Source: Chitinophagales bacterium
GTDB taxonomy: Bacteria; Bacteroidota; Bacteroidia; Chitinophagales; JADIYW01
Reading direction: 5' to 3'
DNA: 64,000 nt
Assembly: GCA_019694955.1 (NCBI GenBank)
Contig: JAIBAX010000005.1
Coordinates: forward strand, 62,001 to 126,000
Position numbers and translations under genes: made by a program
Notes under the pieces: generated by a model
Told to the model about the DNA's origin: nothing
Seen by the model: only the letters and a program-made list of their open reading frames with translations
Databases searched by the model: none
Shown: piece after piece, positions 12,967-32,264 of the stretch
Layout: the number at the start of each line of letters is the position of its first letter
Position numbering within the stretch: the first letter of the stretch is position 1

Positions 12967-13000
12967 AATAGGCTGTCTGAAAAGGCAGCCTATTTTTTTT
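12967..13000 (+). terminator. Rho-independent terminator after pit
   Basis: A stem of about 12 bp (AATAGGCTGTCT with AGGCAGCCTATT, one G-U pair) with a GAAA loop, followed by T8. The next 510 bp, to 13515, is AT-rich with no gene that I can support. A weak similarity of 13241-13300 to 61000-61060 (gtggacaaataa, then ctactaatatt, then tattttcttcta) suggests a decayed dispersed repeat. Confidence 0.92.
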
Positions 13001-13515
13001 ATCCACAAAGAAAATCCTAAGAACTATAACAAACGATAAAAACATTCATCACAAATTACGCATTGGATGAGAAAAAATTATCACAAAAGTAATTATAAAA
13101 TAGTCCCTTAGTAAAATCCAATTCCTGTCCACTTGAACACGAGTGGACTACTTTACAAATCATCTTGTTGTTATTTTTGTGTCTTCTGCTGCGGAGGTTT
13201 CCCTAATCATCGGGATGACCGTCTCCAGATAAATCGGAATGTGGACAAACAACAGCCTTCTAATATTTTAATGCATTATATTTTCTTCTAACGCTGACTT
13301 TCGGATAAAAACCTTTCTCAAACACATATGTTTCAATAAGTTAAACCCAATACATTATTCTTTTCCTAAATATAATCATCATAACAGATTGAAAATATTC
13401 AATATGTGTAATATATTCTTTTTAAATTGAAAATAAATTAAAAAAACGTTGTATTAGATATTTATTTTATATAATTTTGATTTAAACTAATATTTACCTA
13501 ACATAAACCTAACAT

Positions 13516-14811
13516 TTGAAACCACATCTAATCATAAAAACAAAAACAGCAGTTACTGCTTCCCGAATTCCTTTCTGGGGCGACTTCATTAAAAACAAAA
13601 CGGGAGAAATAAGTAACTTTTTCCCGGAATTCGATAGCATACTTTCCAATAACCATTTAAATTTTTGGCTTACACAAGAATACAAACCTGTTTCTGAACA
13701 TTGGTCAAATGAAGAAATCAATAGTGGATTAAATAGAATTTATAGGGTTATACTAAAAGAGAACTTTGCATTTCCAGAGCGCTTACTAGAGCAAATAAAA
13801 ATCATACCGCTTGTAGAAGATGTAAGACCAGCCTTAGTAGCAGACGCTCCCATTCCGATTGCTTCATCCATGTCACTACAACCAAATATTTCCCGCTCAA
13901 GAGAAATAATAGGGCTTAAGCAAGCACATTTTTATTGCAAAGGAAATCCTTCCATCAAAATTGCCGTATTAGATACCGGAGTGGATGCACAACATGCAGA
14001 ACTCAGAACTGCTGTATCAAATCAAGCTGATTTCGTTAATTTAGATGGGTTAGATACTGTGGAATTCGTTGGAGACATTACTGGATATGATGAAGTGGCT
14101 GAGGATGAAGTAGGCCATGGCTCTCATGTGGCTGGTATCATCGCAGGCAAAGGAAAAGAAATGCCACTTGGAGTGGTACCTGAATGCAAGATTATGGCGG
14201 TTCGGGTACTTGCCAGCATGAAACAAGGTGATAAACTTGTGGGCGCCGGACTTATCGACAATATTAATGTTGGCATAAAGTGGGCAATTGACCACGGCGC
14301 CGATATAATAAATATGAGTTTAGGCATAAAACATAGTGGCGGAGGCTTACCACATGAAGAAATCATACAATACGCCAAATCAAAAGGCGTAACCATTGTA
14401 GCGGCCAGTGGCAACGATGGACAAAATAACAAATATTACCCCGGTGCACTACCGGGTGTAATAGCCGTAGGCGCTATCAATGACGATAGAGAAGTGGCAG
14501 ATTTTTCTTCGTATGGTGCAAATGTTTCATTAAGTGCTCCCGGCACAAATATTTATAGTTCTTATGCCTACGGCAAATATGCCTTTGCCTCCGGAACATC
14601 ACAAGCGTCACCATTTGTTGCTGGGGCCGTAGCTTTGCTCAAATCACATGCGCTCTCAAAAGGCTATCGCCTAAAAGACAATCAGGTTAAATATATACTT
14701 AAACATACTTCAGACAAGGTAAACACTCGGTTCAAAGATGAAAAAGCCGGATATGGCGTAATCAATCTGGCGGACGCAATAAAACTTTTAAATTATCAAT
14801 TAACATCATAA
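13516..14811 (+). CDS. Subtilisin-like serine protease (S8), no signal peptide
   Basis: A 431-residue S8 peptidase with the full triad: Asp153 in IAVLDTGVDAQHAE, His201 in VGHGSHVAGIIAGKG and Ser362 in SGTSQASPFVAG, with Asn300 in ASGNDG for the oxyanion hole. Residues 1-115 are unlike the catalytic domain and may be an inhibitory propeptide or targeting domain. No hydrophobic signal is visible, so it resembles intracellular subtilisins. The start is TTG at 13516: an in-frame stop lies just upstream and the next ATG would remove over 100 residues. It is first in a row of ten same-strand genes and may process or activate their products (inference). Confidence 0.9.
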   Translation: MKPHLIIKTKTAVTASRIPFWGDFIKNKTGEISNFFPEFDSILSNNHLNFWLTQEYKPVSEHWSNEEINSGLNRIYRVILKENFAFPERLLEQIKIIPLVEDVRPALVADAPIPIASSMSLQPNISRSREIIGLKQAHFYCKGNPSIKIAVLDTGVDAQHAELRTAVSNQADFVNLDGLDTVEFVGDITGYDEVAEDEVGHGSHVAGIIAGKGKEMPLGVVPECKIMAVRVLASMKQGDKLVGAGLIDNINVGIKWAIDHGADIINMSLGIKHSGGGLPHEEIIQYAKSKGVTIVAASGNDGQNNKYYPGALPGVIAVGAINDDREVADFSSYGANVSLSAPGTNIYSSYAYGKYAFASGTSQASPFVAGAVALLKSHALSKGYRLKDNQVKYILKHTSDKVNTRFKDEKAGYGVINLADAIKLLNYQLTS

Positions 14812-14822
14812 AATCAGATAAG

Positions 14823-16652
14823 ATGGGAAATTTTGGAATCACAAATTTTGGCAGTTCAAACGTAAACGGTTTGCGATTTGGCACCATCGGCAAGGAACCC
14901 GATCCTTATGCCGTAGAACAATTAAAAATACTCGGAAATCTACTCAGCGGAAAATTGATGAGTAATGATTGGGATCAGGCAGAAGAAAATGCTGAGGATT
15001 TCGGCTTGTATAGACTACTCACTACGCCTTTCCTCAAAAAAGGTAAAGACAACGACCTTTATGAAATCATTCCAAACTATAGGAATGACATGACTTTGCG
15101 CACATTCTGCGAAAAGCGAGTACCTTCACTCTTCTTTGAATTCAATTCACACTTCAATGATGCCTCCTCATCGCTCACTTTCAATCAGAAGCAGATACTA
15201 AGCCATAATAATATCAGAGATTTCTTATTTCTGAAAGCTGTTTACATTGAACAACTGAATAATGTTAAATCCATATTCAGTTACATGACACAAACAGGTA
15301 GTGCTTATCTCAACGTCTTTCAAGCAGTTGCAGTAAAAGCCTCAGAAAGAATTCGCGACAACGAGAAAATAAAATTAGGACATATCACAGCGTCCGACAG
15401 AATTATTGAGTTGCTAAAAGGCGAAGAATTCTCCATGGAGAAAACCATCTTCTATAATGAGATTAAAAATATCATCAATAGAATGGTCTTCGACCTCGAT
15501 AATTTGGATTTGATATCAAAAGTAGAAAAAGAACTCGGCGATATTATTTCCGACGACGATGTTCCGGCTATACTCAACTACTTGAAATCATCCAACATCA
15601 AAATTGATGCACAAAATGCCAAGTACTTTATTCCCATTGCCGTTAACAACCTAAAAAATAGCAATATTTCATATTCCAGTACCTCTTCGGGTGCTGCTTC
15701 GGAATTCGACTTTGCTGTTAATTATTATGAAGACGACAGAGCCTCTTTAGAAATTATTAAAGAAAACATCGTTTGTGCCAGCCAATTGTATTATGTAATG
15801 GTATTGGGCGATGAACTGGGAATCTTTAACATCATCAACTACATTGCCACCAAGAAACTTCCTGCCGGAAATATGGACATCAGAAACCGCGATACCTTAA
15901 AAGACTTGCAACTATACATCTTTAGTGAGAGTTTCAAAGACCTTCGCAATGGAGAAATCTTCAAACGCACACTCCCTGCTGAAAGAATGATGTTCTACAA
16001 ACAAGTGTATAGCGTTGGAGATGAACAAACCTTAGAAGGAATGGCCGTCAATAACGACTATAACAGACTTTGGTCAATACTTATGAAAGAGTGTGTAGAC
16101 TATATTCAACGAGTAGAAGACACTACCAATAGCGGATATAGCATTTCCCGACAAAAAATTATGCAGGCTATAGAAGATTTGCAATACAATCTTTCTACCC
16201 ACTGCACAGGAATGTCGAAAGTAGCCACGCCGATTATGTACAAAGAAATGGATTTCGTCATCGAGCGTTTCATGAAAAATGAGGAAATTACCAGACAAAT
16301 TTCATTAGGGAATTCCACTTCTTTCTGGAAAGTAATCGAAAGAATTTTATTTGAAATGCAAGGAGAAGTACCCAATGTGGCTGCCCTTCGCAACAAAGCC
16401 GTATTTGGACATCGCATACTCTCATTCATTGCCAATTACACCCCTGCACAGGTCGCCGATGATGTCAAGTTCAACGATTTTCTTTCTACGGTAGAAGCAT
16501 TTATTATTGCTGAAAGTCAACTACAAGACAATCCCATGGATATGAGAAGTGAAGATCCTGCCGACAATGCAAACGGTAATATGGGAGGCTATCCTGGAAT
16601 GAATGGCGTCAATAAAAATGTACCCGTAGGTGCTGACGATTGGAATTTTTAA
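14823..16652 (+). CDS. Unrecognised 609-residue helical protein of the protease/murein-hydrolase cluster
   Basis: I do not recognise this protein. It begins with a Gly/Asn/Phe-rich stretch (MGNFGITNFGSSNVNGLRFG), then reads as a long alpha-helical protein without signal peptide or membrane segment, and ends in a flexible Asn/Gly/Met-rich tail (about residues 575-609) finishing ADDWNF. There are no obvious nucleotide-binding or catalytic motifs. It starts 11 bp after the subtilisin gene and 21 bp before the next gene, so it belongs to the same operon. A scaffold or structural role is possible but unsupported. Confidence 0.75.
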   Translation: MGNFGITNFGSSNVNGLRFGTIGKEPDPYAVEQLKILGNLLSGKLMSNDWDQAEENAEDFGLYRLLTTPFLKKGKDNDLYEIIPNYRNDMTLRTFCEKRVPSLFFEFNSHFNDASSSLTFNQKQILSHNNIRDFLFLKAVYIEQLNNVKSIFSYMTQTGSAYLNVFQAVAVKASERIRDNEKIKLGHITASDRIIELLKGEEFSMEKTIFYNEIKNIINRMVFDLDNLDLISKVEKELGDIISDDDVPAILNYLKSSNIKIDAQNAKYFIPIAVNNLKNSNISYSSTSSGAASEFDFAVNYYEDDRASLEIIKENIVCASQLYYVMVLGDELGIFNIINYIATKKLPAGNMDIRNRDTLKDLQLYIFSESFKDLRNGEIFKRTLPAERMMFYKQVYSVGDEQTLEGMAVNNDYNRLWSILMKECVDYIQRVEDTTNSGYSISRQKIMQAIEDLQYNLSTHCTGMSKVATPIMYKEMDFVIERFMKNEEITRQISLGNSTSFWKVIERILFEMQGEVPNVAALRNKAVFGHRILSFIANYTPAQVADDVKFNDFLSTVEAFIIAESQLQDNPMDMRSEDPADNANGNMGGYPGMNGVNKNVPVGADDWNF

Positions 16653-16673
16653 TCACCACAAAAAGTAAAGTAT

Positions 16674-17687
16674 ATGAATCAACAATTAATGCCGGAAATT
16701 AAAGAACAAGCTCGCGCCATGGCCAGAGATATTCTCGTTAGAAGTCAATCATTCAAAGCAATGCCGCCTGATGAACAACGCAGTATATACCTGACATTAG
16801 TGGATGAAAATATCCATAAGCTTGCCAAACAACACGGACTAGTAAAAGAAATGGCACAAAGCAAAGGTCCGGGTGCCGAAATGGGATTTGGCGGTTACAA
16901 TCCCGGATTAGAAGGCAGTGTAGATGCCTTTGAAGACTTGGTAGACTCCGTAGATTTTCCAAAGTTTGTCGCCGACCTAATGAAAGCGGTATTTGATGCT
17001 AATATCACCGTCATGAAAAAACAAACAGATGATTATATCCGTTTGATGAAAGAAGCCACAAAAGGTGTTGCCGATTTTGTTAAAAAAGTAAAAGACGACG
17101 ATTCCTTTGCATACCTTGCAGAAACAAAAGGCAATCAATTTGGCATCCAAATGGAAGATTCGCCCGATGGAGGATCAAAAATGGTACTTACCAATCCTGA
17201 AGGAGAAAAAGTCGACATGGAAGACAATGAAGTAAAGGCGAAGATCATGGAAGCGAAAATCGCCATGGCCAAAGAACACCGTGCCGCACTCCGCGAAGTC
17301 ATCTTAATGGGTGTAACCCGCTTGGTAGTTGAGAAAGGAGAAATCGATGCCGCCGTAGAATTCAGCATCAAATCCACCAGAAAAAGCAACAAATCACATA
17401 AAGACCAAAACATCAATACCACATCCCTAAACATGGAGTATGGTGGTGGTTTGATGGGAAGTATTTTTGGAGGGCCAAGTGGGAGTATGAACATGACCAA
17501 TACCAACATTCAGGTAAACACCTCAAACAAAGATGCTACGGATGAAATGACTGCAAAACTTACAGGGCACGTGAACATCAAATTCAAGACCGATTATTTC
17601 AAACTCGACAATTTTGCAAACATGTATGCCGATGGTGGTATTGCAGCACTAAAACCAGCAGCTCCGGCTGCCGTTCCAGCAAAATAA
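16674..17687 (+). CDS. Unrecognised 337-residue cluster protein, weakly DUF2589-like C-terminal half
   Basis: Function unknown. Residues 1-190 are helical and charged. About residues 210-320 are beta-rich: AAVEFSIKSTRKSNKS, then a Gly/Ser/Asn-rich stretch (MEYGGGLMGSIFGGPSG), then AKLTGHVNIKFKTDYF. This strand-loop-strand layout weakly recalls DUF2589-type proteins, but I would not assign it on sight. It ends in an Ala/Pro tail (LKPAAPAAVPAK). No signal peptide or membrane segment. It lies 7 bp before the next gene. Confidence 0.72.
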   Translation: MNQQLMPEIKEQARAMARDILVRSQSFKAMPPDEQRSIYLTLVDENIHKLAKQHGLVKEMAQSKGPGAEMGFGGYNPGLEGSVDAFEDLVDSVDFPKFVADLMKAVFDANITVMKKQTDDYIRLMKEATKGVADFVKKVKDDDSFAYLAETKGNQFGIQMEDSPDGGSKMVLTNPEGEKVDMEDNEVKAKIMEAKIAMAKEHRAALREVILMGVTRLVVEKGEIDAAVEFSIKSTRKSNKSHKDQNINTTSLNMEYGGGLMGSIFGGPSGSMNMTNTNIQVNTSNKDATDEMTAKLTGHVNIKFKTDYFKLDNFANMYADGGIAALKPAAPAAVPAK

Positions 17688-17694
17688 TACGGCA

Positions 17695-19695
17695 ATGGCA
17701 CTGGCTTACCTAAAACTTGAAAGCAACGAGAACAGCGTAGTCAGATTCAAAGCTGATATTGGCACTAATAGGTGGTTTAGATATATCATCGGCAAAAAAA
17801 AAGACCATCAAAACGGCATTGACATCATCGACGAGGTCATTCATGAATCCAAACTCTTTGAACAATCCAACGAGAATCCCTTCAACAGTTCTTTTAATCT
17901 TGAAATTGCAGACGACTTATTTAGGGATGGACGTAAGTATGTTCAACTATTGAGTTATAAGGACAATCGAGGGACATCTCCTGCCGTTTCAAGTGCCGTT
18001 TTAGTGTTTAAAACAGTTGGCATAGGTGAATTGCCGACATTGGAACTTTCTTTATCACAACCAGAAAACAAAACGATGCAAACACAATCTTTTAATAGTT
18101 GCAGAAATGTAAGTTTTTCCTTTCAGGAAAGCAAATTCAGTGATGCCATGTTTCTGGATGCATTGCTGAATGTGGTTAAACTTTTGGCACCAACAGCAGT
18201 AAATGCAATTGGCAGTGCCGCCGGGATAAATCCATCTAGCAATACACAAATATTGCAAGTTGTCAATGGCGTTATTGATGCCATCAAAAATGCCACTCCT
18301 GCTGCCACGCCAGCCGCCAATCCCGCACCAGTGCCAGCGCCTGCACAACAGGTTGCAGAAGCGCATGCGCTCAGTTATGCCAAAACATCCCGAACGGCTA
18401 AATTTATCAATAAAAATAAACCCATCTCCAAAGGAATGATCATCGATGGTGGCGTAATTACCGGTCCACTGCTGGCTTCGCTGGCAGGCCCGGTTTTACA
18501 ACAAGCACCGCAGATTTTACAAACCTTGCTTGGCAAACCAATAGAATTGATGAATGCTATTATGAACTTCAACTTACAGAAGCGCCAGAATGAGCAAAAC
18601 TTCATGACAAACCTCATCAACTCAGTCAACCAAGACACCTTGCTGAGTGAAATGATAAGAAATGGGATGATGCCCGCCAATTTGGGAATAGCACAAAGCG
18701 TAAGCCATCAAATCACGCCTCCCAATGTTTCTCTAAAAATAGATATCGGGACACCTATGGAAGTATTTGGGAAACCAAAGTATGTGTACGCAACAACAAA
18801 AGGCATCCGCTTCACCTTAAGCACCAACTTTACAGAGAAAATACCCACCGCTCCCCTGCCGAAGGCTATCGTTAAAGTTTGCTTTAAAGATGCCACGAAT
18901 TCAAAGAAGTACTTTGAGAAACACTTTAAACTCAAAGACATCCTTCCAAATACACCCTTTCAAGTAGATTTCTTTCCCGATGAACTCAACGCCCTACCTG
19001 CACAAACAGATATACTGATGGACGTACAATTCTTATGGAAATCTGAAAAAACAGGAAAAGTATTCAGCCTGACAGCGCATCATGTAGTCTTCTTTGTGCA
19101 GCAATATATTTTACTTGACTTCGGAGATACTATCAGTGAAGAATTGTCCTTAAAAGACATGGAGCGTTTCCGTCCATTTTGGCACAAAGTATGGGAAGGG
19201 GCGACCTCCAACAAAGTTAAATGGGACATAGAAGCTACTTTCAGGTATTATACTTTTTACCGTCCGCTCGCCGATTCAAATGGGAGAATAGAAACAAAAA
19301 TTTCAAAGACAGAAAATGAAGAACAAGCGTCAGACTTACGGCTAGAAATCAGGGGTTCAATGAAATCAGGTTTGGAAATCAGCCCGGTAGAACTTAATAA
19401 GCTCAGTCCATTATTTGGCAAGTATCCTTCTCTACCCATGGAAAAATTAGCTGCATTCAAAACCAGCGATTTGTCCGCATACTTTAATCTTCAGGCGACA
19501 CAGAGCATTCAAATGAAAGGCAAAAAAGAAGAAATTGGCGCACTATGGGTATATCCGGAAGTCACCCTAAAAGGTGCAACCCTTGGAAAAATAGAAAAAA
19601 CCAATGAAAATGGTCAAGTCATAGAACACAGCAAGGAGAATGCTTACCTCCCGGCAGTGACTTCTGTGCATTTTGTAGGCTTAAAAACACAATAA
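17695..19695 (+). CDS. Unrecognised 666-residue beta-rich cluster protein
   Basis: Function unknown. Residues 1-105 look like a beta domain (FKADIGTNRWFRYIIGKKK, then YVQLLSYKDNRGTSPAVSSA). A low-complexity Ala/Pro linker near residues 200-222 is followed by a hydrophobic Gly/Ala/Leu segment (GPLLASLAGPVLQQAPQILQ, about residues 260-282) that could insert in a membrane or form a coiled helix. The remaining 400 residues are strand-rich. No catalytic motif was recognised. It could be a carrier or scaffold for the hydrolases encoded downstream; this is inference from position only. Confidence 0.73.
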   Translation: MALAYLKLESNENSVVRFKADIGTNRWFRYIIGKKKDHQNGIDIIDEVIHESKLFEQSNENPFNSSFNLEIADDLFRDGRKYVQLLSYKDNRGTSPAVSSAVLVFKTVGIGELPTLELSLSQPENKTMQTQSFNSCRNVSFSFQESKFSDAMFLDALLNVVKLLAPTAVNAIGSAAGINPSSNTQILQVVNGVIDAIKNATPAATPAANPAPVPAPAQQVAEAHALSYAKTSRTAKFINKNKPISKGMIIDGGVITGPLLASLAGPVLQQAPQILQTLLGKPIELMNAIMNFNLQKRQNEQNFMTNLINSVNQDTLLSEMIRNGMMPANLGIAQSVSHQITPPNVSLKIDIGTPMEVFGKPKYVYATTKGIRFTLSTNFTEKIPTAPLPKAIVKVCFKDATNSKKYFEKHFKLKDILPNTPFQVDFFPDELNALPAQTDILMDVQFLWKSEKTGKVFSLTAHHVVFFVQQYILLDFGDTISEELSLKDMERFRPFWHKVWEGATSNKVKWDIEATFRYYTFYRPLADSNGRIETKISKTENEEQASDLRLEIRGSMKSGLEISPVELNKLSPLFGKYPSLPMEKLAAFKTSDLSAYFNLQATQSIQMKGKKEEIGALWVYPEVTLKGATLGKIEKTNENGQVIEHSKENAYLPAVTSVHFVGLKTQ

Positions 19696-19696
19696 T

Positions 19697-19831
19697 ATGG
19701 AAGAGCAAGAAAACGAAGAACACGCTTCAACAATAGACACTTCTTCTACCGAAGTGAGATTTGAAGGCTATAATGTAGAATTTGATGTGAAAATCAAATT
19801 AATTCCTGTTCAATTGAATGAAAAGAAATGA
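19697..19831 (+). CDS. Small 44-residue acidic cluster protein
   Basis: ATG at 19697, one base after the preceding stop; its TGA overlaps the ATG of the next gene (ATGA at 19828). The product begins with an acidic, Ser/Thr-rich stretch and ends VRFEGYNVEFDVKIKLIPVQ, a likely pair of beta strands. The coupling on both sides and the strand pattern argue that it is real. Function unknown. Confidence 0.6.
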   Translation: MEEQENEEHASTIDTSSTEVRFEGYNVEFDVKIKLIPVQLNEKK

Positions 19832-20118
19832 ACGACAACAGGACAGATATAGATGAAGCCTTTGTTTCCTTACACGAAAAGATTGCCGCTTTTTGTGAGG
19901 AAATGATTGTCATACAAGATATGCCGCATGCTATACAGATGCGTGTAGAACGTTTGGAGATAGACACACCCATAGAAATAGATATCATCGAAGATGAATA
20001 TGGTACTCTGCAAATCGGGGCTGTCCCTCCACTGTATAAAGTAGCTACTTCTATTGAACCTATATACCATCAGATTAAATTTCGCATAGATGTAAAACAA
20101 AATCATCATGGAAAATAA
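19828..20118 (+). CDS. Small 96-residue cluster protein
   Basis: Overlaps the previous gene by 4 bp and the next by 11 bp. The N-terminal 35 residues are helical; then RVERLEIDTPIEIDIIEDEY and GAVPPLYKVATSIEPIYH suggest a compact beta domain. The layout (a conserved strand, an acidic turn, then PP and a late His before a final strand) recalls small partner proteins found next to trypco-type conflict-system genes, but I cannot name a family with confidence. Confidence 0.7.
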   Translation: MNDNRTDIDEAFVSLHEKIAAFCEEMIVIQDMPHAIQMRVERLEIDTPIEIDIIEDEYGTLQIGAVPPLYKVATSIEPIYHQIKFRIDVKQNHHGK

Positions 20119-20845
20119 AGCCTGGAATTTAGAATCATTTGTAGATGCACTCGTTGTAGAATTGGATAAAACCAAGGAAACGCTGGCAGTGAAAGCGGTC
20201 AATAAACCACTAACATATACTGTTAAAGACATGGCATTGGATTTACAAATATTCCCTTCCTATGATGGCGACCAAGTGAAATTTGTTACAGCGCAGGCAG
20301 GACAGTCAGGTGCCTCAAAAATCACCATTCAACTGGCATCTATAACAGACAATCAGGTACGGGCAACCACCAAAAAACCGCAATCAAAAGACGACCTCGA
20401 TTTAGAAAAAGTAGAAATAGACCCAGAGACTAAAAAATCATTGAGAAAGCTCGGTGTAAAATCTGTTGATGACCTAAAACAAATAGAAGAAAAAAATATC
20501 GACATAGAAAAAGTCAGCGAGAAGAAGATAGATTTTAAAAACCTTGCTAATCTGATAGAAAAATCACGACGTGACGCAAAACCACCTTTGGTAAAAAAAG
20601 TCAGCATGAGCATGCAAAACAATCAACCCATTTTAGTCGTCGAAGGCAGCAATTTAGCCGTTAATAAGAATTTCAATCCCGTTGCCGTCATCAATGGGAC
20701 GCTGGCGGAAGTTAAAAGCTTCAATAGCCATAAACTAGAAATTGAAATTGATAAATCCCAACTAGAAAAAGGGAAATCTGATTTAGTCATCACATTAGAT
20801 CCGTATTCCCTATTTAAGATTAACTTGAATAAAAGCAGGATATGA
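20108..20845 (+). CDS. Protein with trypco2-like N-terminal domain and C-terminal TIG-like beta domain
   Basis: A 245-residue protein. Residues 10-80 (FVDALVVELDKTKE, then TYTVKDMALDLQIFP, then VKFVTAQAGQSGASKITIQL) follow the pattern of the trypsin-co-occurring domain trypco2: an initial helix with V-x-E-L, two strands, and a late G-x-x-K-I-x-I-x-L strand. In known families this domain accompanies proteases in bacterial conflict systems. Residues 110-130 (LRKLGVKSVDDLKQI) look like a helix-hairpin-helix, and residues 165-240 (PILVVEGSNLAVNKNF) like an IPT/TIG fold. The assignment is by eye and tentative. The ATG of the next gene overlaps its stop. Confidence 0.65.
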   Translation: MENKAWNLESFVDALVVELDKTKETLAVKAVNKPLTYTVKDMALDLQIFPSYDGDQVKFVTAQAGQSGASKITIQLASITDNQVRATTKKPQSKDDLDLEKVEIDPETKKSLRKLGVKSVDDLKQIEEKNIDIEKVSEKKIDFKNLANLIEKSRRDAKPPLVKKVSMSMQNNQPILVVEGSNLAVNKNFNPVAVINGTLAEVKSFNSHKLEIEIDKSQLEKGKSDLVITLDPYSLFKINLNKSRI

Positions 20846-22359
20846 GCAACAAATATAGCAAAGACCTAAGCCGCATTATACAAGGTTATTATGGCATCCC
20901 CGCCACAAAGAAAATTGTTAGTGAGAAAACACATAAAGTAGTCATCACACAAAGTTATGACAATGGCGTAAGCCTAAACATGTCTTACTCCACAGAAGAA
21001 TATGTCGAGTATCAGGTACAGCAATCTCGGGAAAATTTTGTTGAATACGAAGTAATGGGCGCAAGTGAATTACCCCTGGTACAACAATCATCCATTCCCT
21101 ATTACGACACGCTGAGTGATGATGTTTTCATTGAAGATTTTACCGAAACAGCATCAGACCATTCAAATAACGTCTCCGTACAAAAAAGTCAAGAGTACGA
21201 CTTCCCCATTGAGCAAAGTCTTGAGGACAAAGAGCATCACATGATTTCTTTCGAAGAAGAAAAACCCAAAACGTCGAACGTCAAAAAGAGTTCCTCACAA
21301 AGTGTCGACGAAGATGATTTTCTATCAGATATGAAAGCCATCCTTCGTGGAGAGAAACGTTTTGAAAAAGAACAAGGTATGGTAGAAGCAAAGAGTACTC
21401 CAACCAAAAACCCACCACCTCCAAAAGAAGAAGAAACGCAAAACCTGCGTGACTTTAAGAGTGAGCATGCCATTTTCGATAAAATCGCTCAAAGCATGCA
21501 GTACGCCAATGCCTACGACTTAGGAAGCTTTGATTTAGAGCAGCGTTTTGATGACTTCGATAGAATAGAGGAATTAAAGGAAAAAAAATCAAAAGGAACA
21601 ACCTCTAAGAAGAAATCCAATGCCATGAGTGATGCGGAACTGGTTTTTGAAAAAGCCGACCACAGTGATTATATCGAAGACTTGGATTTAATGAAGTCAC
21701 TATCAGAAAAAGAAACATTCTTCCAGTCTTTGGAAGACACACGCATCAACAACCCTGATTGGCCATCCCGACCAACGACCATGAGACCGTACACGCTAAG
21801 CGAGAAAAAGGCAACATTCGGAACGTTTGAATATACCACCACGGAGGGAGATGATATTCACATAGATCCGGAATGGGTGAGGGATAATATTGTTTCAGTA
21901 GAAATACCACAATTAATTGGCAAGATAAATGGCAGTAAAGCCGACAACAAAGTAAGGAAAACGAAAAGCATGCAATTCCACAGAAAAGGGGCTACACAAT
22001 TAGCGGCTTTGTTTAAAGCTTGGGAAGATGCCGGCTTACTAGATAGGATTATCACTTTCAATGGAGACTTTGTGCCAAGATTTGTTCGATTGACAAAAGC
22101 ACAAAAAGAATGGGAAGAACGCAATGGCAGACGCATTGCCTTTGAAAACAGGTCCCTCAGCAACCATTCATGGGGAACAGCCTTTGACATCAATGCAGAA
22201 TGGAACAGACGCGAGCATGTTCCTGCCCTACTTAGCAAAGAAGGCTGTGTAAGAGAATTAGTAGAAATCGCCTACCAACACGGCTTTTTCTGGGGTGGAC
22301 ATTTCAAAGGAAAAAGCATCGATGGCATGCATTTCGAATTAGGCAAAATCATACAGTAA
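20842..22359 (+). CDS. Murein peptidase of family M15 with long disordered N-terminal region
   Basis: A 505-residue protein. About residues 1-320 are charged and low in complexity (runs of Glu, Ser, Lys, proline clusters such as KNPPPPKEEE) and probably disordered. The C-terminal 170 residues are a zinc D,D- or L,D-carboxypeptidase/endopeptidase domain: His442 and Asp449 in NHSWGTAFDIN and His497 in IDGMHFEL, the M15 metal site. Phage endolysins of this family cut the murein stem peptide. No signal peptide is present although the substrate is outside the membrane. It overlaps the preceding gene by 4 bp. Confidence 0.82.
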   Translation: MSNKYSKDLSRIIQGYYGIPATKKIVSEKTHKVVITQSYDNGVSLNMSYSTEEYVEYQVQQSRENFVEYEVMGASELPLVQQSSIPYYDTLSDDVFIEDFTETASDHSNNVSVQKSQEYDFPIEQSLEDKEHHMISFEEEKPKTSNVKKSSSQSVDEDDFLSDMKAILRGEKRFEKEQGMVEAKSTPTKNPPPPKEEETQNLRDFKSEHAIFDKIAQSMQYANAYDLGSFDLEQRFDDFDRIEELKEKKSKGTTSKKKSNAMSDAELVFEKADHSDYIEDLDLMKSLSEKETFFQSLEDTRINNPDWPSRPTTMRPYTLSEKKATFGTFEYTTTEGDDIHIDPEWVRDNIVSVEIPQLIGKINGSKADNKVRKTKSMQFHRKGATQLAALFKAWEDAGLLDRIITFNGDFVPRFVRLTKAQKEWEERNGRRIAFENRSLSNHSWGTAFDINAEWNRREHVPALLSKEGCVRELVEIAYQHGFFWGGHFKGKSIDGMHFELGKIIQ

Positions 22360-22373
22360 TTAAATAGAAATAT

Positions 22374-24851
22374 ATGGAAAACAGATTCTTAACAATGGAT
22401 AATTACCTGAAAAACTTAAGGGCAATTCCAACAGACAATAATATTCGCGCCAAAGGTTCTAAATCCGGGCGCTCTAGATTTAGAGCTTTCCAACCGGAGG
22501 TCGGTGCGATGTCATATAACGGATTTTCTAAACCATTTACAGCATCTCAAAGAGTTCTGATCGTATTGATTGAAAATGGCGGTATTGAAATCGACACAAG
22601 AAAAATCCTCGAGCCACTACTCCAAGTGATTCCTGAAACCTTCCGTGAAACAGCATTCAGCTATTTAAACCGAAAAATTAAGGAATATACCGACACCATT
22701 CTCGAATCAGCAGAGTTATACCTCAATAATTATGCAGGCTCCAGCCCTGATTTTTACGGCAATGTCGTCATCCTCAGGAATGGAACGGCTACTTTCGAAG
22801 AACTTAAAAATGCGTTAACAACCTACTCCAAACAAGATAAAACTATTGATTTATACATCCTCACCCATGGCAGCAATGAATATATCTCCGTTAATGGTGG
22901 TGGAATAAATGCGGCAAAAATTGAAAGCATAAAAGCAGCAAATGGCGGCAATAACCTAAGAATACGCTCCGTTTATATGATGAATTGCTACGGCTCCACC
23001 TTAAATACGGCCTGGCGAAATATCGGTGCAAGAGTCGTTTCGGGAACTGTTGGGTTAAATGTACTACCGGAACCAACCACTTATTTTTTATTTAAGGACT
23101 GGAAGAATGGGAAACCTTTTGGTGCAGCCGTCACAGATGCCTATCAGAAAACCATTAATTTCCTAAAAGACATTATACGCAATCTCCCATTACCCGACAT
23201 GGTGAAATCCATCATTCTAGGTTTTGATTTCAGCAGTTTTGATGTTATAAAATCCAGTGCACCTGTTGTTGTGGGCGATCAAAGCGTTACCATTGGCAGC
23301 GATAATCTTTCATTTTCGCAAACGGTACACTCCGCCTTTGCGCTAACCGTAACGCCTTTACACAGACTTTCGCTGTTCCAAGAAGTCATTCCGAGAACGA
23401 TGACTTTGACCATTTCTCAGAAAGGCATTGATTTTATTCTTTCATATGAAGGCTTTCGAGCCAATAAATACAATGATGCTGCCGGGCATTGCACCATAGG
23501 CTACGGACATTTAATACATCGTGGAAATTGCAATGACGACAGTTCGGAGGCACAGTTTTCAGGAGGTATTACTCAGGAAAGAGCCAAAGAACTCTTTATG
23601 GAAAGAATCCGCCCGGTGGAATTGCTCATCAATGAAGAGGTAAAGACAGAAATGACACAAGCACAATTCGATGCATTGTGCAGTTTTACTTTTAACGTTG
23701 GCTCCGGCGCCTTCAAAGGTTCTACATTACTGAAAAAACTGAATGCCGGCGACTATGATGCTGTACCCGTCGAGATGAACAAATGGGTAAATGCCGGTGG
23801 GCGGAAATTAGAAGGCTTGGTCAAAAGAAGAAAAGGTGAAGGAGAAATGTTCTCCGGTGGCATCTACTCCAACCACCAAAGCCTGATGGGTCGTTCATTT
23901 GAAAATACACCGCGCGGGATTCGCAATAATAATCCGGGAAACATCCGCCTCACCGACCAAAAATGGGAAGGCAAAGTACCCAATAAAGACAATACGGACA
24001 AATCCTTTGAACAGTTTACCAGTTATGCTTATGGTGTTAGAGCGCTAATAGTTCTATTAAAAAATTATATCACCAAAGGAAGGAATACCATTACAGCTAT
24101 TTTTGGGGCGTATGCTCCCCCCAATGAAAACAATACGCAGAATTATATTCGCTTTGTTGCCGAACGCTTGGGCGTAGGTGCGGATGCGCCGCTTTCTCTC
24201 ACAAAAAATATATTGAAAGAATTGGCACAAGCCATCGCAAAAATGGAAAATGGAGTCGAGTGCATTTCAGACACGCAGTTTGATGAAGGGTTTGCACTAT
24301 TATCCGATGACATGAAAACTGCCATTCAGCAGTCATTTTATTTTGGACAAGAATATTACTATGGAATGAATGCAGAAGAAGCTTCCGAAGGTGCTGAAAA
24401 CGATACAGCCGGAATCATTGCTGTCAGCAAATCATTCTCCATTCCATCCTATTGTCCAATTAATACCGCTACTACGGCAGGTACGGAGCATTTTTCATTG
24501 GGAGAATTTGGTTCTAAAGACGGTAAAGACATTCCGGATGGTGTGAAAGGCAATATCCAACAACTCATGGAGCAGTTAGAAGTCCTTCGTGCAGAAGTTG
24601 GCAAACCCATAAAGATCGTTTCCGGTTATAGAAGTCCGGAGCATAATAGCTCCGTAGGTGGTGTTTCACAAAGTCGCCATATGTGTGGACAGGCTGCGGA
24701 CATACGCATTAATGACATGACACCTGCTGAAGTACACCGCACCATAGAATCATTGATATCTACGGGAAAAATGAGACAGGGAGGGTTAGGTCTATATAAT
24801 TCATTTGTTCACTACGACATCCGCGGAACTAGAGCCCGTTGGAACGGTTGA
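22374..24851 (+). CDS. Caspase-like / GH24 lysozyme / M15A peptidase fusion protein
   Basis: An 825-residue multidomain protein. (1) About residues 125-265: a caspase-fold segment with His165 in IDLYILTHGSNE and Cys205 in YMMNCYGSTL, a credible His-Cys dyad. (2) About 345-495: GH24 muramidase, Glu359, Asp368 and Thr374 spaced exactly as the T4 lysozyme triad (E-x8-D-x5-T), followed by GYGH. (3) About 512-625: a domain starting PRGIRNNNPGNIR, as in phage virion-associated wall-cutting proteins. (4) About 700-825: peptidase M15A, with His769 and Asp776 in SRHMCGQAAD and His813 in FVHYDIRG. No signal peptide. It combines protease, glycan-cutting and peptide-cutting parts. Confidence 0.85.
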   Translation: MENRFLTMDNYLKNLRAIPTDNNIRAKGSKSGRSRFRAFQPEVGAMSYNGFSKPFTASQRVLIVLIENGGIEIDTRKILEPLLQVIPETFRETAFSYLNRKIKEYTDTILESAELYLNNYAGSSPDFYGNVVILRNGTATFEELKNALTTYSKQDKTIDLYILTHGSNEYISVNGGGINAAKIESIKAANGGNNLRIRSVYMMNCYGSTLNTAWRNIGARVVSGTVGLNVLPEPTTYFLFKDWKNGKPFGAAVTDAYQKTINFLKDIIRNLPLPDMVKSIILGFDFSSFDVIKSSAPVVVGDQSVTIGSDNLSFSQTVHSAFALTVTPLHRLSLFQEVIPRTMTLTISQKGIDFILSYEGFRANKYNDAAGHCTIGYGHLIHRGNCNDDSSEAQFSGGITQERAKELFMERIRPVELLINEEVKTEMTQAQFDALCSFTFNVGSGAFKGSTLLKKLNAGDYDAVPVEMNKWVNAGGRKLEGLVKRRKGEGEMFSGGIYSNHQSLMGRSFENTPRGIRNNNPGNIRLTDQKWEGKVPNKDNTDKSFEQFTSYAYGVRALIVLLKNYITKGRNTITAIFGAYAPPNENNTQNYIRFVAERLGVGADAPLSLTKNILKELAQAIAKMENGVECISDTQFDEGFALLSDDMKTAIQQSFYFGQEYYYGMNAEEASEGAENDTAGIIAVSKSFSIPSYCPINTATTAGTEHFSLGEFGSKDGKDIPDGVKGNIQQLMEQLEVLRAEVGKPIKIVSGYRSPEHNSSVGGVSQSRHMCGQAADIRINDMTPAEVHRTIESLISTGKMRQGGLGLYNSFVHYDIRGTRARWNG

Positions 24852-24865
24852 TAAAACCATCAAAT

Positions 24866-25660
24866 ATGTATACTAACAGATTCATTTCCAACGCATTTTC
24901 AATACAGAGAAAAAACACACCGAAGAAATTTTCTTTCTCTGCCTCCACCACCTTCAAAGTAGTTGAAAATGGTGTATTAATGGATGGTTATTACCGCGAC
25001 CCATCCGAAAAGCACTCGAAAGGTGGCAGAGAAAAACACCTCGGCGTGGATATCACAGGCCCTACTGATGGTGGTGCCTCCGTTCGTGGCAAACTAAATG
25101 ACCCCAGAAGAGGGTTGCCGGTTTATTCATGTATTAACACCATCATTCCAATAAATGACTTAAATCAAGCGAAAGTTTTTAACAAAACGACCAATAGCCT
25201 CGTAACAGGTGTCGGTATTCAGGGAACGGGAAATGCAGAAATGATCGAGGCAAAAATAAAAACACAGCCATGGAAAGATACCAGCGACCATGCATATGGC
25301 GGCATTGTAGGATTTCACTGTTACTACCGTTATAATAATTTGCAAGGCACTAGATCCGAGTTTACTGCTTGGATAGAATTTCTACACCTGATAACGGATG
25401 AATTTCCACCGAGATATGGAAGCTCAGTTGCCACCAAGGATGAGTGGAATGCCTTGGGCAGAGGCAATGGCTGGGGACCGGAAATAAAAAACAACGCTGT
25501 TGTACCTCCATCGTTCTTTCAAGGCCCCATATATAGCATTATCGGATATTTGGGTGCTACACAATCTCCACATGTACATGTGCAAGTAGCATTCCATGAT
25601 GGTCATAGCAATAGCATGCAAAATACGATAAGAATCGACCCGTTAATTTTTGTCTATTGA
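24866..25660 (+). CDS. M23-like murein endopeptidase
   Basis: A 264-residue protein with the LytM/M23 zinc site: His58 and Asp62 in KHLGVDIT, and His236/His238 in SPHVHVQVAF. The segment between them (about 170 residues) is longer than in minimal M23 domains and holds Tyr- and Trp-rich loops. The ATG at 24866 is chosen over a TTG at 24839 that would overlap the previous gene. No signal peptide. It is the last gene of the cluster; its end overlaps the convergent kup gene by 7 bp. M23 enzymes cut peptide crosslinks of murein. Confidence 0.75.
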   Translation: MYTNRFISNAFSIQRKNTPKKFSFSASTTFKVVENGVLMDGYYRDPSEKHSKGGREKHLGVDITGPTDGGASVRGKLNDPRRGLPVYSCINTIIPINDLNQAKVFNKTTNSLVTGVGIQGTGNAEMIEAKIKTQPWKDTSDHAYGGIVGFHCYYRYNNLQGTRSEFTAWIEFLHLITDEFPPRYGSSVATKDEWNALGRGNGWGPEIKNNAVVPPSFFQGPIYSIIGYLGATQSPHVHVQVAFHDGHSNSMQNTIRIDPLIFVY

Positions 25661-29246: not shown

Positions 29247-32200
29247 TTATTCCTGAATAATAATTTGTTTCGTTATCAAAATCTCTGATTCATTTATTAA
29301 AGTTAGTAAATATAATCCAGAATTTAATTCATTTTTACTAACGACTATATTAAATTCTCCTTTATCGAAAGCTTTTTTCTCAAAAATACTCTTTATGAAT
29401 TTCCCTTCACTATTATATATTTTTAAATCAAATATACCTGGTTCTCCAATATTCAAATCAATTGCATAATCACCTTTAGTTGGATTAGGCACTATTTCAA
29501 AACTTATTTCCACAAAATCTTGACGCTCATCTTGGTTTTCCATCCTACTGGTATTATTCGTATTAGTTGTAAAACATATATCAAATGGGCTTCTAGCAGA
29601 GTTCTGGTCAGCATTAATCCTTAAAAAATAATCACCTGGTTGTGTAATTAGAACCCGCCTTACTAACGAAGTGAAAGGAGGACTATTCCAATAACTACTA
29701 CAAGTAATTAAATCACCTAAAGTCCCAGAGTTGTTTGCATATAAACTCCAAGTGGTTATTGTAGGATTATTATAGGTAGTTGGCAGTCTAAGTTTGGCTA
29801 ATAAAGGCACCTCATCTGATGTAACATTAATTACATACCACATATCAAGTGTAGCAACAGGGTTACTACAACTTGGAAGAATATTATCTGCATTTTGTGT
29901 AGCCCATTTGGTAGTAAAATCACCAAAATAATCTTCGGTATAGCTCGGATTAAAACATAAATCTCCAGCACCAACATTCCCAAGGTCTAAACTTATTGCA
30001 CCTTGCCATTCATCGTTACTAATTTCAGGATTTAAACATAATGTAAAAAGATTTCCTTGCCCAACGATTCTATCAACTGAAATAAAATATAAACTACCTA
30101 CCACTAGATTTGTTGCATCTATTCTAAGACTAGAATTAGAATGATTATGATATGATCTACAATGAATAGCATTCGTTGGCTCTTCATTGGCATTTGTTTC
30201 CCACAATGTAAGATGTGTATTAGAAACGTCTCCATAATTAATACCATTATGTATTCCCGTCCTAAGTTGAATATTTAAATTTTGAGAAGTAGCCCTAAAT
30301 GCAAACCAAACATCCGTACTTAAATATAAGGGTGTTTTCTGAGTAATAGGCATACATGGTGGTGAGAGAGGAGGCGTATAGGTTGAATTTACAAATGACA
30401 TCCCTTCATAGCACTCATTTAAATCGCATATCTCAACAGCATCTTCCCAATGATCGGCAGCAACAACAGCAGGTGCATTGGCGCATGGATCAATTGGTAT
30501 CGTTATAACTCCAATAGAACGAGCAGGTATCAACCAATTATCATTTTTTGTCTTGTGATTCATAATACCATTAGTAGAAGTGCCATTACCCACTAAATCT
30601 CCACTTAAACTAGCAGCATCATAATAATTCATCTCCGGGAACGTTCCGGAAATAATTAATTCAGACAAATCTTTTGTTTCTCCAGCAATTGTTACTTCTG
30701 AGGTTTGATCAAGTGTTACTGCGTTATCGCTAGTATTTGCGTAAAGGAAGGTAATTGTATTGGTGGTTGGATTGTGGTAAGGTATAATATTTAATTCGGA
30801 AGGCAAAATATTAGTATAAATCATTGAATTATTACTTGTCAAATCACATAAATTAAAGTTATTATGAATTTGATTTAACAAGAAAAATGGATAAAAGTTA
30901 TTATTAGGCAAAATATTTGAAGAACTCACATTTGGATAAAAAAGAACTCCAAAAGAGGACTGACCTGGTGAAAATAAATTATGATGGATATTAATTGGCA
31001 TTCTGTTCTCATGTTCAAAATTCCATCGTAGTAAATTATTAACCATAGAAATATTATAAGATGCATCTGCGAAGGAATTCCTAAAGTCTCCTTCATTAGA
31101 AGCGTTATTAACCCAAGCCCACTCAGTTAACCAAATATCGAAATTGTTTTCGCCAGTCAAGTAATCATTTAAAAAATCGAATAAAACATTTCCATTCTGA
31201 TTATATACTAATTGTAATTCTGAATTATTTGGAATAACACTATTTTCATTTCTATAAAAATAGTAATGAGGTATCACTGCATCAAATCCTAATGCCGTTG
31301 ATGGAAAAGTATGATTAATAATTGCCGAAGTCCAAACATCAGTTAGCGGTTGATTTATATTAATAGGAGCCCCAATAGGTATATCATTTAATTCCGCATC
31401 TGACTTTAAAGCAGTATAATAAAAGTCAGAAAGATTAAGGTATTCTTGAATATTCAAATCAATAGCCCACCTTGCATTATTATTTGAAGTATATTCCTCA
31501 AAATAAAACTCATTACCAAATTCAATCCCAACAACATCAATATCATTTTCTATCAAAAATCTAATGGCATTTAAATTTTCTTCGACTTTTTCTTGAAACC
31601 CTGTTGCAGCTTCTATTCCTTCCCAATCATTTGGAGAGGCAGGAGTTACATTAATTGTTCTTCCTTGATTACAAGGGTCAAAGAAATGAGTTAACATATT
31701 AATTACAAAAATTACTCTTGGTCTTTCGCCAGGTAATGCATTTACATACTCTACTAAATCAAATATATAGTTTCTTTCATAATTATTTTGAAGATCAAAA
31801 GCATCAGTACGCACGGGGGAATTAGCACCTATTCTAAAAACATTCAATTCTTGACTATTAATACCATATCCAACATTTACATTACATGAAGAGAATGCTG
31901 TTTGAGAAAAACCATCATTTGTAAAACAATTCTCAGAGTTGTTCAATTCGATTCCATAATGATAGTAATTTGCCAATGTACCACCGGGAAATCTTAAAAT
32001 ACTCGCCGGCATATTGTCTAAATAATTAATAATCAATTGATTTGGATCTTTAATATCGCGTTCACAATTAGGATTTTCAGTTGCGTCTTCAATAAAAATT
32101 GATTGACCTGAATTTGTTTCGGTACTAAAAGCAAAAGCCGTATTAAACCCAAAACCGCTCAAATCCAAAGGATTATTTGTAACAGTAAAATCTACTTTGA

Positions 32201-32264
32201 CAGATTGTGATTGTACGAGGTTGCAAATTGCCAATATGGCAATTAGAAGCATAAATTTTTTCAT
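29247..32264 (-). CDS. Secreted clan GH-A-like glycoside hydrolase with T9SS sorting domain
   Basis: A 1005-residue exported protein. Signal peptide at residues 1-20 (FMLLIAILAICNLVQSQ). About residues 25-590: TIM-barrel glycosidase-like domain with LRFPGGTLANYYHYG, a predicted acid/base Glu252 in VGIEFGNEF and nucleophile Glu380 in IWLTEWAWV, a layout as in GH51/GH79-type enzymes. Residues 600-920 contain two repeated beta domains with WYVI/WFAF strands. Residues about 925-1005 (IVPNPTKGDYAIDL to the end) are a type A sorting domain for type IX secretion. The substrate is unknown. Very AT-rich codons. Confidence 0.82.
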   Translation of the reverse strand: MKKFMLLIAILAICNLVQSQSVKVDFTVTNNPLDLSGFGFNTAFAFSTETNSGQSIFIEDATENPNCERDIKDPNQLIINYLDNMPASILRFPGGTLANYYHYGIELNNSENCFTNDGFSQTAFSSCNVNVGYGINSQELNVFRIGANSPVRTDAFDLQNNYERNYIFDLVEYVNALPGERPRVIFVINMLTHFFDPCNQGRTINVTPASPNDWEGIEAATGFQEKVEENLNAIRFLIENDIDVVGIEFGNEFYFEEYTSNNNARWAIDLNIQEYLNLSDFYYTALKSDAELNDIPIGAPININQPLTDVWTSAIINHTFPSTALGFDAVIPHYYFYRNENSVIPNNSELQLVYNQNGNVLFDFLNDYLTGENNFDIWLTEWAWVNNASNEGDFRNSFADASYNISMVNNLLRWNFEHENRMPINIHHNLFSPGQSSFGVLFYPNVSSSNILPNNNFYPFFLLNQIHNNFNLCDLTSNNSMIYTNILPSELNIIPYHNPTTNTITFLYANTSDNAVTLDQTSEVTIAGETKDLSELIISGTFPEMNYYDAASLSGDLVGNGTSTNGIMNHKTKNDNWLIPARSIGVITIPIDPCANAPAVVAADHWEDAVEICDLNECYEGMSFVNSTYTPPLSPPCMPITQKTPLYLSTDVWFAFRATSQNLNIQLRTGIHNGINYGDVSNTHLTLWETNANEEPTNAIHCRSYHNHSNSSLRIDATNLVVGSLYFISVDRIVGQGNLFTLCLNPEISNDEWQGAISLDLGNVGAGDLCFNPSYTEDYFGDFTTKWATQNADNILPSCSNPVATLDMWYVINVTSDEVPLLAKLRLPTTYNNPTITTWSLYANNSGTLGDLITCSSYWNSPPFTSLVRRVLITQPGDYFLRINADQNSARSPFDICFTTNTNNTSRMENQDERQDFVEISFEIVPNPTKGDYAIDLNIGEPGIFDLKIYNSEGKFIKSIFEKKAFDKGEFNIVVSKNELNSGLYLLTLINESEILITKQIIIQE

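Follow-up and report, generated by a model that had tools for sequence, protein, structure and literature searches.

Several described systems resemble, each in part, the locus reported here, a ten-gene cluster at positions 13516-25660 of a 64,000-nucleotide stretch of a Chitinophagales bacterium genome (GCA_019694955.1, contig JAIBAX010000005.1, positions 62,001 to 126,000; hereafter, the window). Extracellular contractile injection systems (eCIS, as PVC and Afp) are patchy, transferred operons with varied toxic cargo, and their effectors lack Sec signals and are loaded by N-terminal tags, signal peptides that have no conserved sequence (PMC11297309). Type VI secretion system (T6SS) effectors include interchangeable murein hydrolases (Tae/Tge) behind a common N-terminal marker (MIX-type leaders). 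The Trypco/VMAP conflict systems, dependent on nucleoside triphosphates (NTP), place peptidases beside a Trypco-like domain, and related systems use lysozyme-like and papain-like murein effectors (PMC7159879). Type VII secretion has its mycosins (MycP), and phage lysis cassettes carry GH24, M15 and RGIRNNNPGN domains. The window cluster recalls each of these, but it is neither a phage remnant nor a T6SS nor a contractile system. It is a genuine gene system, apparently undescribed, whose core belongs to unknown families (no description of such a system was found in the open-access literature), and its function can in part be inferred: we give about an even chance to its being a horizontally transferred effector-delivery assembly.

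An earlier note, made from the letters of the window, described ten plus-strand genes with no terminators inside. All ten open reading frames (ORFs) are present with the sizes first described, as follows.

13449..13479, plus strand: promoter, exact match to the Bacteroidota consensus TTG-N20-TAnnTTTG, 36 nt 5' of the first gene
13516..14811, plus strand: S8 subtilisin-like protease; TTG start, triad Asp153/His201/Ser362, N-terminal extension of about 110 aa, no signal peptide
14823..16652, plus strand: core protein A, 609 aa; acidic-aromatic C-terminal tail (DDWNF)
16674..17687, plus strand: core protein B, 337 aa; helices and a long amphipathic beta-hairpin with a Ser/Thr/Gly-rich tip
17695..19695, plus strand: core protein C, 666 aa; immunoglobulin (Ig)-like beta domains at either end, hydrophobic helical middle
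19697..19831, plus strand: 44-aa core protein; GxxVxFDxKVxLxPV-type motif
19828..20118, plus strand: core protein D, 96 aa; PP...ET..MPVFH motif in a 22-row alignment
20108..20845, plus strand: core protein E, 245 aa; remotely Trypco2-like N-terminal domain, relatives 23-59% identical
20842..22359, plus strand: protein F, 505 aa; disordered region, two conserved linear segments, C-terminal M15_4
21310-21381 and 21466-21558, plus strand: the conserved linear segments of F, from motif comparison
22150-22341, plus strand: M15_4 domain of F (Pfam, 7e-14)
22374..24851, plus strand: 825-aa cargo protein; N-terminal NR leader, caspase-like domain, GH24, RGIRNNNPGN domain and M15_3 (Pfam, PHROGs)
23442-23840, plus strand: its GH24 lysozyme domain
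23904-24395, plus strand: its phage-type RGIRNNNPGN domain
24534-24818, plus strand: its M15_3 peptidase domain
24866..25660, plus strand: 264-aa cargo protein; NR leader, HxxxD and HxH metal-site motifs, possibly of the M23 family

The ten genes form a genuine, single transcription unit, because their spacings run from -11 to +21 nt (in order +11, +21, +7, +1, -4, -11, -4 and +14 nt, then the last gene), the one promoter consensus stands before the first gene with no full match inside the cluster, and no convincing forward terminator lies between the genes, as the note had said. The last gene could begin at TTG 24839, overlapping its neighbor by 13 nt, or at the in-frame ATG 24866, giving 264 aa (MYTNRF...) after a 14-nt gap. 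The ATG is more likely, because it leaves that gap and places the cargo-type leader at the N-terminus.

The cluster recurs. The same genes in the same order are found on a Tolypothrix plasmid (by tblastn) and in Roseivirga (by genome search), and a plasmid of Burkholderia pyrrocinia carries a rearranged version with four copies of B and two of A. With the B alignment as query, a scan of 84,980 species genomes yields 28 loci in seven phyla (Bacteroidota, Pseudomonadota, Cyanobacteriota, Actinomycetota, Thermodesulfobacteriota, Myxococcota and Candidatus Eiseniibacteriota). Since the scan depends on exact short patterns, this number is a minimum; for the rarer phyla, all copies come from metagenome-assembled genomes. 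Hidden Markov models (HMMs) of the core families, applied to 30 non-rearranged loci (the window, L006 and L010-L037), find S8, A, B and C in all of them, on one strand and in the order S8-A-B-C-D-E; all six genes are there in 22 loci, D is not called in 4, and 4 stop after C. The full core, in fixed order, is S8, A, B, C, the 44-aa protein, D, E and F. Few genomes carry it: among those sampled, 2 of 395 from Bacteroidota and 2 of 244 from cyanobacteria, with the seed genome counted in each case. The earlier note had proposed that a set of genes recurring in conserved order would mark a system, and the 30 loci strongly support this, beyond Bacteroidota too; the homologs are linked to each other rather than scattered, and A, B and C match no part of a phage tail or T6SS.

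In a tree built from S8, B and E, most other Bacteroidota stand apart from the window, which groups with copies from Saprospiraceae, Chromatiales, Roseobacteraceae and Sphingomonadaceae and with an acidimicrobial copy. Monophyly is rejected both for Bacteroidota (approximately unbiased test, p = 3e-77) and for Pseudomonadota (p = 7e-7), so the genes travel together between phyla, the core block moving as a unit with its order intact. Ratios of nonsynonymous to synonymous substitution of 0.05-0.21 (pair L030/L031; D and E of L014/L015) indicate purifying selection, the range leaving aside other pairs, which are saturated at synonymous sites.

Some copies depart from this pattern. In Lacinutrix neustonica (L017, 6503-13000) S8, A and C are broken into pieces, by frameshifts or sequencing errors. 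Adonisia turfae (G426, contig C11) has at least two core copies, with matches in three places; those of B and those of E/F partly fail to coincide, and there may be a partial or third copy. Divergent genes sometimes adjoin S8: a sigma-factor-like gene and a membrane/TPR protein in L008 (12615-16932; recognized by eye rather than by HMM), followed farther out in Roseivirga by a TPR-CHAT-like protein (also by eye), and genes of similar size in L020, L023 and L027. The window has none such. A regulation module is possible.

Following the core, the genes after F vary from genome to genome, and encode GH24, M15_2/3, M23, Amidase_2, Tae4, extensin-like, peptidoglycan-binding, papain-like C70 and C92, and caspase-like DUF4347 domains. 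More than 25 of these cargo proteins begin with a leader, M-x(0-3)-NR[LFI]xxLxxEL, after which a basic stretch often comes. Enrichment of the leader over other ORFs of the same loci (p = 9e-15) is indicative only, as the motif was first noticed in these very data and related cargo proteins do not count as independent cases. The first reading, sound on the anatomy of the system, overlooked both this leader and the conserved segments of F, the features most informative for mechanism. F is a low-complexity protein directly after E. Of 29 carrier genomes, 24 have its segment HxIFDxIAQxMxYANxxDLG...RFDxF, nearly always as a single copy beside the core, next to E; relatives of F differ at the C-terminus or carry another enzyme (Amidase_2 in L028 and L030). 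The idea that this segment is a docking tag spread over many cargo proteins was rejected, there being almost always one per genome, adjoining E.

The 825-aa cargo protein shares its architecture with full-length relatives in the Chromatiales and Thetidibacter clusters (L011 and L012). The earlier note had called it a caspase/GH24/M15 protein. GH24 and M15_3 stand, a fourth domain, RGIRNNNPGN, had been missed, and the caspase-like domain, which has no HMM match in the window copy, draws its support from the HG/C dyad kept in relatives and from DUF4347 domains in sister clusters. The last protein, called M23-like, does have HxxxD and HxH motifs, but with no HMM or PDB match the assignment is weaker than first put. 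Two leader-bearing cargo proteins elsewhere that lack a Pfam match (L014, 16971-19391; L034, 16561-17874) carry the motifs HFLTDAFAAGH and HEAVH, which suggest candidate phospholipase-like and zincin enzymes.

Searches of Pfam, NCBIfam, PADLOC and PHROGs give no significant match for any of core proteins A to E; the PDB sequences, searched with A, B, C and E, likewise give none. In a crude hydropathy scan, B, D, E and most copies of S8 and A are free of segments resembling a signal peptide or a transmembrane span, and C has borderline ones. A has HMM relatives in all 30 loci, in some split over two genes, most with the C-terminal tail. Direct relatives of B across phyla are 37-69% identical. 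The structure model of B is poor (predicted local distance difference test, pLDDT, 61), with helices and a long beta-hairpin; throughout the family both strands of the hairpin have an amphipathic pattern (shuffle p = 0.009 and 0.001) and its tip is rich in Ser/Thr/Asn and in Gly, all compatible with, and no proof of, a barrel-forming element. C, with relatives in 30 loci, gives an AlphaFold model (pLDDT 72) with confident N- and C-terminal beta domains and a low-confidence, hydrophobic helical middle; Foldseek returns generic Ig-like matches only. The gene for the 44-aa protein is kept, a short ORF with a GxKVxFDxKVxLMPV-type motif occurring between C and D in many loci. Because its motif forms the C-terminus of a 436-aa protein in Tolypothrix (L006, 19276-20586), the 44-aa protein may be a detached docking tail.

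Weak matches were set aside as chance. Those in Pfam and PDB are all sub-threshold: for B, Endonuclea_NS_2 and Focal_AT (in at most 8 of 31 members scanned); for C, holin, Tpp toxin and GARP; for A, trigger factor and Pumilio. Foldseek pairs C with transglutaminase, complement, Vps26 and Spo0M, in each case as a generic Ig-like match (TM score at most 0.3 in the PDB list), and the viral matches of C name no function; for B, the fold matches with beta-barrel pores and FliF rings lack significance.

The protease matches PF00082 (5e-52), and the full triad read in the earlier note is kept in all intact homologs. As in type VII secretion, the best NCBIfam score goes to the mycosin model (TIGR03921), but at 187.2 bits it falls under the curated cut-off of 278.75, S8 has no signal peptide, and no further type VII component is recognized. 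Within the cluster PADLOC finds nothing beyond generic subtilase matches and weak IetS matches, and no system-specific defense protein set. The note also listed a trypco2-like protein. Pfam finds no Trypco2 in the E of the window or in any D, and this part holds only as a distant likeness confined to the E N-terminal domain, which aligns collinearly with five real Trypco2 domains (hhalign profile-profile, probability 58%, P = 1e-4). E is likely, though not proven, to be a remote relative in this domain. Against the same set B reaches 0.2% and D 2%, and D was rejected as a Trypco2 candidate. Trypco/VMAP systems differ further: the cluster has a subtilase instead of a trypsin and lacks a MoxR, vWA, STAND or GTPase component, and Pfam finds among the ten proteins no trypsin-like peptidase with a MoxR/vWA or other NTPase partner.

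Contractile machines can be compared across whole genomes. No sheath (PF04984) is found in the window's genome, which is 100% complete, or in 14 of 29 carriers; a sheath-family match exists somewhere in the other 15. VipB/TssC is missing in 25 of 29 carriers, the window's genome among them (VipB is present in 4). Since 12 of the 29, the window's genome and 11 others, have neither, no such machine is needed. A to E have no HMM match to tail parts. Unlike an eCIS, the cluster has no recognized sheath, tube, baseplate, spike or AAA ATPase, and its leader is conserved in sequence; unlike the T6SS, whose effectors it approaches in one cargo protein matching Tae4, it has an unrelated core and no recognized cognate immunity gene.

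The flanks of the cluster are a phosphate porin, a PhoU-like protein and a PHO4 transporter upstream, the phosphate transporter followed by a hairpin and T-run near 12970 (read directly in the sequence), and a convergent Kup potassium transporter downstream. When an empty insertion site was sought in family members, the two flanking genes were found on different contigs. Farther on, the window encodes a 1005-aa protein (29247-32264) with a type IX secretion C-terminal sorting domain.

How would an effector-delivery assembly work? The core proteins, having no signal peptides, would assemble in the cytoplasm, B (with its hairpin) and C (with its Ig-like domains and hydrophobic middle) forming an oligomeric body or pore, to which F and the NR leader would tie the cargo. 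S8, perhaps held back by the Trypco2-like E, would cut a subunit or cargo, as maturation or as a trigger. Release would probably come through lysis of some producer cells, and the murein hydrolases and peptidases would then attack other cells. The stronger version, a new class of delivery machine unrelated to phage tails and all numbered secretion systems, with an A-E body, matured by the subtilase, loading interchangeable wall-degrading effectors by the NR leader and spread by transfer through at least seven phyla, we rate somewhat short of even. Cargo from many unrelated families, mostly murein-cutting and including the T6SS amidase effector family Tae4, speaks for delivery, as do the core order in 30 one-strand loci, transfer between phyla, purifying selection, the leader, the single F segment and the amphipathic hairpin of B. 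The earlier note had foreseen proteolytic control, murein attack and a structural body, which fits the gene anatomy, while control by S8, a scaffold of A to C and the choice of self or foreign target are things we infer. Other points weigh against delivery. The structure model of B is poor, and A-C cannot be linked by fold to any known delivery body; there is no encoded export route, which leaves release as an assumption; immunity genes are not recognized; and the leader could serve storage or inhibition rather than delivery.

The lack of recognized immunity genes and secretion signals suits self-lysis equally well, and a suicide device for abortive infection or programmed lysis is the main rival, although an unlikely one. 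An internal trigger would lead S8 to cut B and/or C into membrane pores, and stored murein hydrolases would burst the producer. Protease, caspase-like and Trypco2-like domains together recall conflict systems (PMC7159879), C has hydrophobic segments, and the patchy, transferred distribution is that of defense genes. But a single wall enzyme would be enough for self-lysis, and the clusters carry changing sets of two to four, with papain-like peptidases besides; a dedicated leader has no explanation under this reading; and the cluster lacks a sensor, a nuclease and an NTPase. The variety of the cargo and its dedicated leader favor delivery over self-lysis.

A housekeeping or developmental complex for wall remodeling (in division, a sporulation-like change or predatory feeding) would account for cargo that mostly cuts murein, but great rarity within phyla, plasmid-borne copies, transfer between phyla and changing enzyme sets make it improbable. 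Still more doubtful is an accessory effector island serving a T6SS or eCIS encoded elsewhere in the genome: Tae4, GH24, M15 and C70 do overlap with those systems, and some carriers do have sheath or VipB matches, but the twelve that lack both, a fixed core of seven to eight genes and a leader with conserved sequence, unlike eCIS signals, all argue otherwise. A prophage or phage-derived tail or lysis remnant, suggested by the GH24, M15 and RGIRNNNPGN domains common in phages, can be dismissed almost entirely, as A, B and E occur in none of 50,697 phage records and B in no viral contig, the multi-gene core being absent from phages, while the locus has no holin or spanin recognized, no phage structural genes in or beside it (PHROGs giving only endolysin and virion-lysozyme type matches, for cargo) and flanks of ordinary transport and metabolic genes.

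If the cluster is indeed an effector-delivery assembly, bacteria of at least seven phyla would share a delivery or killing device of which annotation pipelines show no more than a subtilase and a few lysozymes among "hypothetical proteins", and a design not derived from phages would join the known systems of injection and antagonism. Its short leader, conserved in sequence, would make effector discovery directly testable. Even if the cluster should serve self-lysis, it would represent a multi-gene, protease-linked system of wall attack with a core of unknown fold.

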